A stretch of DNA of 64,000 nucleotides from assembly GCF_013839515.1 (NCBI RefSeq), contig NZ_JACDNQ010000016.1, forward strand, positions 1-64,000, in the 5' to 3' direction. This DNA is from Natronomonas salinimetallica. GTDB lineage: Archaea > Halobacteriota > Halobacteria > Halobacteriales > Haloarculaceae. Made by a program: the position numbers and the translations under genes. The notes beneath the pieces were generated by a model. That model was given only the letters and a program-made list of their open reading frames with translations, was not told the origin of the DNA and did no database searches. Positions 19,658 through 43,644 of this stretch are shown piece by piece (position 1 is the first letter of the stretch; each line of letters begins with the position of its first letter).

Positions 19658-19915
19658 TTATAAAATATCGCCCGGTTGGCCGGCTTCGGCCGATCGCTCG
19701 GCGACCTCGATGAGCGTCTCCCAGGTATTCACTCCGGCCCGGAGGGAGACGAGGTCGGCCGCGTCGATCCCGACCCGAACCACAGAGCCGTCGACGGCCA
19801 GCGTCGCCGTCGCTCGGTCGCCGTCGATCTCGCCCAGCTCCCCGCCCACCGCGTCGGCGACGAGCGCGGCGGCTTCAGGGGAACGGTACTGAAAACGCAA
19901 GTCGGCGGTGTGCAC
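19658..19915 (-). CDS. pcc1: KEOPS complex subunit Pcc1
   Basis: This 85-residue protein matches Pcc1, the small dimer-forming subunit of the KEOPS complex that makes the universal t6A37 modification of ANN-decoding tRNAs. Characteristic parts are the SPEAAALVADAV helix and the LVSLRAGVNTW helix near the end. It starts with GTG, one base beyond the stop codon of rpoP, and is the last gene of an informational operon (rpl37ae, rpoP, pcc1). Confidence 0.9.
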   Translation of the reverse strand: MHTADLRFQYRSPEAAALVADAVGGELGEIDGDRATATLAVDGSVVRVGIDAADLVSLRAGVNTWETLIEVAERSAEAGQPGDIL

Positions 19916-19916
19916 G

Positions 19917-20051
19917 TTAGTTGACGTTGACTTCCTTGATATCGCGACTCCGCTCTTTCAACAGAACGCGATGACCGCAGTACGGACAACGGACGCCGCC
20001 GTACTCGTCGAGTTCGACGTCTCGCTTACAGCGGGAACACTTGTAGCTCAT
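19917..20051 (-). CDS. rpoP: RNA polymerase subunit P (Rpc10-like)
   Basis: The 44-residue zinc-ribbon subunit of archaeal RNA polymerase reads [19 protein letters not shown] and then [15 protein letters not shown]. Both CxxC knuckles (C5/C8 and C22/C25) are intact. It helps assemble the polymerase core. It lies between rpl37ae (four bases away) and pcc1 (one base), a common haloarchaeal arrangement. Its intact zinc site contrasts with the neighbouring L37Ae. Confidence 0.95.
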
Positions 20052-20055
20052 CTAT

Positions 20056-20316
20056 CTATTCGTCGTCGCCGATCGCAGCCCGGATGGATCGCTTGACGGT
20101 CTTTCCGGCCGGCGTCTGGGGACGGTAGGCACCGCCCGTGAACGTCTCGCCGGTCTCCTCGTTGACCCAGATTCCGGTGCCGACGCGCGTGACGTCGTCA
20201 CCATCGACGGTCGCGCTCTCCGCATCGCCTTCGATCTCCGCGACGCGGCGGCGTGCGACCCGTCCATAGCGTGCGCCGAACCGGCCGGCGCTTCCTGTCG
20301 TATCGTCGGTAGCCAT
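20056..20316 (-). CDS. rpl37ae: 50S ribosomal protein L37Ae, cysteine-free variant
   Basis: The flanks are unmistakable: [21 protein letters not shown] at the N-terminus (given in part), RVGTGIW in the middle and [20 protein letters not shown] at the C-terminus. L37Ae normally holds a zinc ion with two CxxC pairs on either side of the GTGIW segment. Here the 86-residue protein has no cysteine at all: the first pair aligns with ATVDGD and the second with VNEETGE. The gene is first in the rpl37ae-rpoP-pcc1 unit and has no frameshift, so it looks functional, with a zinc-independent fold. Confidence 0.92.
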
Positions 20317-20399: not shown

Positions 20400-21122
20400 T
20401 TAGCCTTTCAGTTCCGACTCCGAGAGCGCGTCGTTGAGGTCCGCACGGACGTGCTCGCCGAGCTCCCGGTCGCCGGCCGTCGTGACGATCCGATTCTCCT
20501 GGACGCTCGATCCGTCTCGGATCAGTAACCGGACGTTGCCGTGTTGGTCGGCGCGGGTGGCTTTCGCCCGGACGCCCGTCCGGGAACTCGACCCGCCCGC
20601 GTCGATCGGTCCCGGGATGATCTTTTTGACGTGCGGGTGTTCCGCGACGGTTTCGAGCGCGCGACGGCCGTCCCGGCCACCGATGAGCGTGCTGTGGCTG
20701 CCGCCGAGTTTTTCGGCGACGGTGGCCTCGACGACCTCCAATGCGGGGTCACCGCGCTTTCGTCTGACCGCGTCGACCGGGTCGTCGTCCTCGACCCGAT
20801 AAAAGGGGTGATGAAGCTCCCCGCGGACCGCGGCGATTACCTCTCTGTCCCCGGTCGCGTACACCTCTTCCGGGCGCTTTCGTCGGGCTTCGTCGGCGAT
20901 CCGCCCCGCGAAGTTCCGGAGTTCGGTCGGTGCCCACCGCTGATCGGCCTCGCGTTTCGTCGTCACCGTCCGCTGGCCAACGATCTCGTCGTCGAAAAGC
21001 GACGTGACCGTCGCCCGTTCGCGGTCGCACTCGAGTACGACGACGTCGGTGTTTCGGCTCCGACAGACCAGACAGTAATCGCCTGGTCGGTCGAGCGGCG
21101 ACGCACAGCACCGACACTCCAT
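20400..21122 (-). CDS. DUF2103 putative metal-binding protein
   Basis: The 240-residue protein begins with a zinc-ribbon-like CRCCASPLDRPGDYCLVC. It then has a middle domain of unknown role, and the DUF2103 signature in the C-terminal half (GGSHSTLIGGRDGR and HPHVKKIIPGPID). I chose the ATG at 21122 because it places the cysteine motif at the N-terminus; the longer frame to 21266 adds an unrelated stretch. It sits between truD and rpl37ae on the same strand, so a link to RNA modification or translation is plausible but inferred. Confidence 0.8.
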   Translation of the reverse strand: MECRCCASPLDRPGDYCLVCRSRNTDVVVLECDRERATVTSLFDDEIVGQRTVTTKREADQRWAPTELRNFAGRIADEARRKRPEEVYATGDREVIAAVRGELHHPFYRVEDDDPVDAVRRKRGDPALEVVEATVAEKLGGSHSTLIGGRDGRRALETVAEHPHVKKIIPGPIDAGGSSSRTGVRAKATRADQHGNVRLLIRDGSSVQENRIVTTAGDRELGEHVRADLNDALSESELKG

Positions 21123-21274
21123 GTCCGACGGAACGCGGTCGAGCCCGATAAGCAGGGCGGTTCCAGTGTTCACGCTCGGTGTGCGCCGCGAGTGCGTGTG
21201 TAGCCGAGCCGTAGCTCCTACCCCCGGTCCACGCTCGCAATGATCGATCCCGTCCACGCGCGGCATCGTCCCGC

Positions 21275-42886: not shown

Positions 42887-43644
42887 GCTACGAACCGGGC
42901 GATTCGCTCGCCCACCGGCTCGACCCGCGATCGAAACTCGCCGTCCAGATCGGGTTCGCGGCGGCGGCGTTCGCCCACACGACGCCCCGCGGGCTGGCGG
43001 CTCTGACCGTCGTGACGCTCGCCGTGTTGTATCTCGCTCGGACCGATCCCCGGCGGGTGGTGTGGGCGTTTCGGTTCGTCGTGCCGTTTCTCATCGCCGC
43101 TCCGCTTCTCGACGGGTTCGCCTGGGGCGTGTGGTTCGTCCCCGCCGAAGCGGTCGGGCCCGCCCTCGCCGGCTACCGCGTTCTGCTCGTGTTGGGCGTC
43201 GCCGCCGCGTACGTCCGGACCACGCCCGTCCGGGACTCCCGGGCGGCCATTCAGTGGGCGGTCCCCGGTCGGGTCGGACAGTTCCTCGGGATGGGTGTCG
43301 CGTTCGTCTTCCGGTTTCTGCCGGTCTTACGGGCCGACGTCGGCCGGATCCGGGACGCCCACCGGGCGCGGCTCGGGACCGAACGGTCGGTCCCGGATCG
43401 GATGGGGATGCTCGTGACCGCGGCGTTCAATCGGGCCTTCGAACGGGCCGATCGCTTCGCCGTGGCGCTGCGGGCACGGTGTTTCTCGTGGAACCCGACG
43501 CTGCCGGAACTGCGCTTCTCACGGCTCGACGCCGCCGCGCTCGCCGTTGCGGCGACGTTCGTCGTACTCTCGCTCGTGACCGTGGTTCCCCCTCGGACCG
43601 TTCTCTCGATGTCCGTCGGTTTCGTCCCGGTCGGCACCCGCTGA
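42880..43644 (+). CDS. bioN: ECF transporter transmembrane coupling protein (BioN-type)
   Basis: The 254-residue CbiQ-like T-component has about five helices. Two coupling helices around RIRDAHRARLGTE and RADRFAVALRARCF carry the Ala-Arg-type motifs that contact the ATPase. It starts with GTG overlapping bioM and completes the bioYMN operon. The next gene has its own TATA box. Confidence 0.9.
   Translation: MLSYEPGDSLAHRLDPRSKLAVQIGFAAAAFAHTTPRGLAALTVVTLAVLYLARTDPRRVVWAFRFVVPFLIAAPLLDGFAWGVWFVPAEAVGPALAGYRVLLVLGVAAAYVRTTPVRDSRAAIQWAVPGRVGQFLGMGVAFVFRFLPVLRADVGRIRDAHRARLGTERSVPDRMGMLVTAAFNRAFERADRFAVALRARCFSWNPTLPELRFSRLDAAALAVAATFVVLSLVTVVPPRTVLSMSVGFVPVGTR

Follow-up and report, generated by a model that had tools for sequence, protein, structure and literature searches.

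A cysteine-free ribosomal protein eL43 in a haloarchaeon and the probable exchange of its zinc-ribbon block among related lineages

An earlier note on this DNA described a gene for the ribosomal protein eL43 (L37Ae) that has lost the cysteines of the two CxxC pairs by which this protein holds zinc around a GTGIW strand. Is such a gene a working eL43, and how did a haloarchaeon come by it? The gene was analysed in the window, i.e. the whole stretch of 64,000 nucleotides from Natronomonas salinimetallica (Table 1). Its open reading frame starts with ATG and is translated into a protein without any cysteine, in which both CxxC pairs are absent, as the earlier note had stated. The Pfam model Ribosomal_L37ae (PF01780) matched residues 6-81 with 79 bits at a cut-off of 21.9. 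Two NCBIfam equivalog models gave 83.3 and 69.9 bits, under their cut-offs of 87 and 95.8, as expected because the cysteine columns are missing. The gene is located directly upstream of rpoP and pcc1. The gene on its other side (20400-21266, minus strand) encodes a DUF2103 predicted metal-binding protein (PF09876, 132 bits) with a CxxC...CxxC stretch before the domain, and its start codon is uncertain.

Table 1 Features of the eL43 locus in the window and the eL24 gene of the same genome
Feature	Position	Strand	Evidence
rpl43e (L37Ae/eL43), cysteine-free form, 86 aa	20056..20316	-	ORF translation, Pfam, PDB match, single-copy check
Swapped block in place of the zinc ribbon, residues 30-60; identity tracks class, not taxonomy	20137..20229	-	Alignment and per-part identity
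Residues 35-41, ATVDGDD, at the former first CxxC knuckle; region 4 residues shorter than in zinc-binding relatives	20194..20214	-	Alignment
Residues 51-57, VNEETGE, at the former second CxxC knuckle (xCxxCGY), length unchanged	20146..20166	-	Alignment
rpoP (subunit P of the DNA-directed RNA polymerase), with its two CxxC pairs intact; downstream neighbour of eL43	19917..20051	-	
pcc1 (KEOPS subunit), conserved downstream of eL43 and in the same orientation in both classes	19658..19915	-	
eL24 of the same genome	contig C26 about 43031-43201 (L261:1273-1704)	-	Two of four zinc ligands lost

The way in which the cysteines were lost was read from an alignment with zinc-binding relatives. The GTGIW strand and both ends of the protein are unchanged, in agreement with the earlier note. 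That all four cysteines were replaced, as it also held, is true for the second pair, where WxCxxCGY has become WVNEETGE and the cysteines are changed to N and T. The first pair was removed differently, by a deletion of four residues from the region that reads DHxCPxCGxDxVDR in the zinc-type relatives. Among congeners, dS exceeded dN by a wide margin, both in the block and in the flanks. This is purifying selection and the gene, which is otherwise intact as claimed, is therefore not a decaying copy. A search for a second, cysteine-bearing copy, which the earlier note had proposed, returned none, and the single L37Ae gene is that of the window (99.96% complete genome, assembled in 30 contigs). 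The best explanation is that the gene encodes a functional, zinc-free (C-) form of eL43, the only eL43 that this haloarchaeon has; to judge from its sequence, it is without the usual way of holding zinc.

The best PDB sequence match was the chain 9l94_R (E 9e-35), a cysteine-free eL43 of a solved ribosome, and sister entries were matched as well. According to the chain sequences, eL43 and eL24 are both zinc-free in 9l94. An AlphaFold2 model built from 33 sequences had a mean pLDDT of 46 and a pTM of 0.28 and was unusable for the geometry of the turns. With this model as the query, Foldseek gave eL43 of H. marismortui (1s72_Z) as the top match, but only with an E of 1.8e-3 and an rmsd of 9. We propose that two short turns, VDGD and NEETGE, take the place of the CxxC knuckles around the GTGIW strand. 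The ribbon would then probably fold metal-free and be held by the unchanged rRNA-binding ends. This turn model draws on the sequence and on the fact that a ribosome such as 9l94 exists.

The occurrence of the two forms was surveyed in 392 haloarchaeal genomes with the L37Ae family profile. The family was found in 390 of them and the scores were bimodal, with modes around E 1e-32 (about 123 genomes) and 1e-22 (about 267), from which the class counts were taken. In all the sequences that were read, the high-score mode had both CxxC pairs and the low-score mode had none. Among 207 distinct proteins, 92 carried both pairs and 115 had no cysteine in the zinc region. No intermediates were observed, so that eL43 exists here in only two states, with 0 or 4 ligands. 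The CxxC pairs define the C+ subform and not the eL43 family, since they are also missing in about two thirds of the sampled haloarchaeal proteins. The cysteine-free form is neither rare nor new; the earlier note had allowed that the change might turn out to be widespread and old, and this is what was found. None of the examined genomes with two L37Ae matches had both forms. The second matches, considered as zinc-bearing paralogues, were rejected because they scored 21-27 bits and were partial or zinc-ribbon-like, or were a duplicate at a contig end. A pattern scan of a 393-genome sample of the phylum did not find the C- signature outside the class Halobacteria, and there is thus no sign of an outside donor. 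The two genomes in which no eL43 was recognised at E 0.001 (G331 and G349, family f4, both >90% complete) probably have assembly gaps. In one C- Halomarina (G408) RYGR is changed to RYGC, with a cysteine for the second arginine; this is outside the zinc site and is either neutral or an error of sequencing.

The distribution of the zinc finger was described in a 2021 review by Pfeiffer and Dyall-Smith. According to this review, all Halobacteriales have the finger of eL43, Haloferacales lack it and in Natrialbales it is found very rarely (PMC8305020, section 3.8c). We found C- proteins in members of the NCBI order Halobacteriales, namely Natronomonas aquatica, four Halovenus, two Halocatena and Halomarina halobia. 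The statement that all Halobacteriales keep the finger is contradicted by Natronomonas, Halovenus, Halocatena and a part of Halomarina.

The earlier note had also suggested that the cysteine-free form might mark one clade. This does not hold. Both classes occur within six GTDB families (f1, f3, f4, f7, f8 and f9) and within three genera: Halomarina (g10; 4 C-, 3 C+), Halococcus (g37; 2 C-, 8 C+) and g42 (3 of each). With these groups accepted as natural, the mixture within families and genera is in itself enough to require at least about eight state changes, whatever the backbone of the tree. A neighbour tree was made from five genes next to eL43 and eL24 (80 genomes, 473 columns), and eL43 changed its state 13 times on it; several backbone forks are open and family f1 is not one group, so that this count is rough. 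In the tree, the three C+ Halomarina are nested in C- Halomarina with SH-aLRT values of 97 and 99%, and the two C- Halococcus in C+ Halococcus with a value of 99%. In g42, zinc-type eL43 is likewise nested in a zinc-free clade. Since the nesting is observed in both senses in Halomarina and Halococcus, exchange would have occurred in both directions.

To see which part of the gene was exchanged, identity was computed once over the ends and once over the block (residues 30-60). Each part offers 31-52 columns, so that the contrasts are coarse. Congeners of opposite class were 85% identical in the ends and 36% in the block. For proteins of the same class from different families the values were 77% and 66%, respectively. 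The ends track taxonomy, whereas a zinc block of about 31-35 codons tracks the class. In family f9, for example, the C-terminal sequence RPQTPAGRTVxRSIRAALDESDDE is common to the C+ and the C- proteins. The best explanation for these patterns is a block replacement by homologous recombination. The mosaic identity and the patchy distribution suggest a single origin of the C- block within the haloarchaea, followed by exchange between lineages in both directions at the eL43 locus. The ends, which are near-invariant, would have served as the recombination arms and only the middle would have changed. Three C+ genes found in C- families (G258, G238 and G265) have ends that also resemble those of other families of the same class, and this looks like a transfer of the whole gene.

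A similar pair of forms appears to exist for eL24. The zinc site of eL24 in the same genome is ruined and reads CDYSG...FADAKC instead of CDYCG...FCSSKC. This protein also has an acidic C-terminal extension after the zinc region with three VEDDEAGTEAD-like repeats. In the 80 genomes two classes of eL24 were observed, a zinc class (CxYCG...CSxKC) and a zinc-free class (CD[FY][ST]G...K[AC]). The states of eL43 and eL24 were concordant in 66 of the 80 genomes, 36 with both proteins of the zinc type and 30 with both zinc-free, and discordant in the other 14 (8 and 6). The association gave a Fisher p of 5e-9, uncorrected for relatedness. A likelihood model of dependent evolution was better than independence (LR 28.2, p 1e-5). 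The stricter independent-pairs test, with a mean of 4.7 pairs for and 0.1 against, was not significant (p about 0.06). The two proteins tend to share their state. In the genus to which the window belongs, two genomes (G251 and G352) combine a zinc-free eL43 with a zinc-type eL24, and the eL24 state varies inside this genus. In the literature, which was covered in part, no paper on the loss of the eL24 zinc site in haloarchaea was found.

The other zinc proteins of the genome bear on the zinc-independent ribosome that the earlier note had proposed. The zinc sites of eL43 and eL24 are lost, and to this extent the proposal is supported. The proteins eL37, eL42 and eS27 keep all of their four ligands each, and RpoP keeps all of its ligands as well, so that the ribosome could be zinc-free in part at most. 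A scan that covered about 389 kb of the genome together with the window found no uS14, eS31 or eL40. Taken together, we regard it as fairly likely that the window carries a sole, functional, zinc-free eL43 whose block was exchanged by recombination and whose state is linked to that of eL24.

Instead of an exchange, a common selection could have led many haloarchaeal lineages to lose zinc binding independently. Acidic, cysteine-poor proteomes would favour the loss of cysteines, the haloarchaeal TFE has lost metal ligands too (PMC5861453), and the zinc-free eL24 retains one or two leftover cysteines, as in a gradual loss. However, the identical four-residue deletion and the block VDGDxVxRxGTGIWxNEETGE are present in all C- families, intermediates are lacking among the distinct eL43 proteins, and the zinc-type genes within zinc-free genera would need to have regained four cysteines and four residues. 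Convergent loss is therefore unlikely. Two old paralogues, of which each lineage kept one, would account for the discrete classes and for the patchiness. The ancestor would have had a zinc and a zinc-free eL43, perhaps as a switch for zinc supply as in bacteria, whose ribosomal proteins behave in this way (PMC3353972, PMC3087516). Against this stand the genomes examined, none with both forms, the position of pcc1, which follows eL43 in the same orientation whatever the class, and the ends that track taxonomy, which is unexpected for two old paralogues; we consider such an origin quite improbable. An ordinary vertical variant, with one loss each in Haloferacales, Natrialbales and here and no wider meaning, would agree with the published distribution by order (PMC8305020) and with families f3 and f4, which are nearly all C-, but the mixed states in three genera and six families and the reversals speak against it and make it very doubtful.

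The exchange of the eL43 block, together with a linked state of eL24, may be part of a wider pattern. Zinc and zinc-free versions of eL43 and eL24 could form a pool that moves among haloarchaea, with blocks recombined both ways, selection matching the states and partly zinc-free ribosomes as the result. We put this forward only tentatively. If it holds, haloarchaea swap two core ribosomal proteins for which strictly vertical inheritance is often assumed, and the losses of two zinc sites in the large subunit are linked. Species of Halomarina or Halococcus that differ in one site would then offer a natural test of the role of zinc in the archaeal ribosome, caution would be advised against the use of eL43 and eL24 as marker genes, and the bacterial C+/C- story would be extended to archaea. 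Most worth a specialist's time are the patchy exchange of an internal block in eL43 and the linked state of eL24. As the driver, a reduced need for zinc or cysteine in the cells is our guess; a sparing of either would be plausible by analogy to the bacterial C- proteins (PMC3087516) and the haloarchaeal TFE (PMC5861453).

The closest known case is HVO_0654 of Haloferax volcanii (PMC8305020), the same protein with the same loss of the C2-C2 zinc finger as the eL43 of the window. The main text of that review has neither the block exchange nor the link to eL24, and both come from the present analysis. Apparently new are the exceptions in the Halobacteriales, the two discrete and repeatedly switching eL43 classes with block replacement, and the parallel split of eL24. 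The haloarchaeal TFE alpha/beta (PMC5861453) is also a core information-processing protein with a halophile-specific loss of zinc or Fe-S ligands. It is a transcription factor, however, and the degenerate TFE alpha ribbon of Haloferax still binds zinc weakly by one cysteine, whereas C- eL43 has none. The analogy to the cysteine-free ribosomal proteins of bacteria, which the earlier note had drawn, is apt. S4 (PMC3087516) and the L31/L33/L36 paralogues are likewise essential, exist in zinc and zinc-free forms and are patchily distributed. They were spread by gene transfer, which the patchiness and the mosaic identity strongly suggest for eL43 too. The haloarchaeal case differs from these in being archaeal and in having no examined genome with both forms, so that a switch by zinc supply is not visible, and only an internal block of the gene seems to be exchanged.
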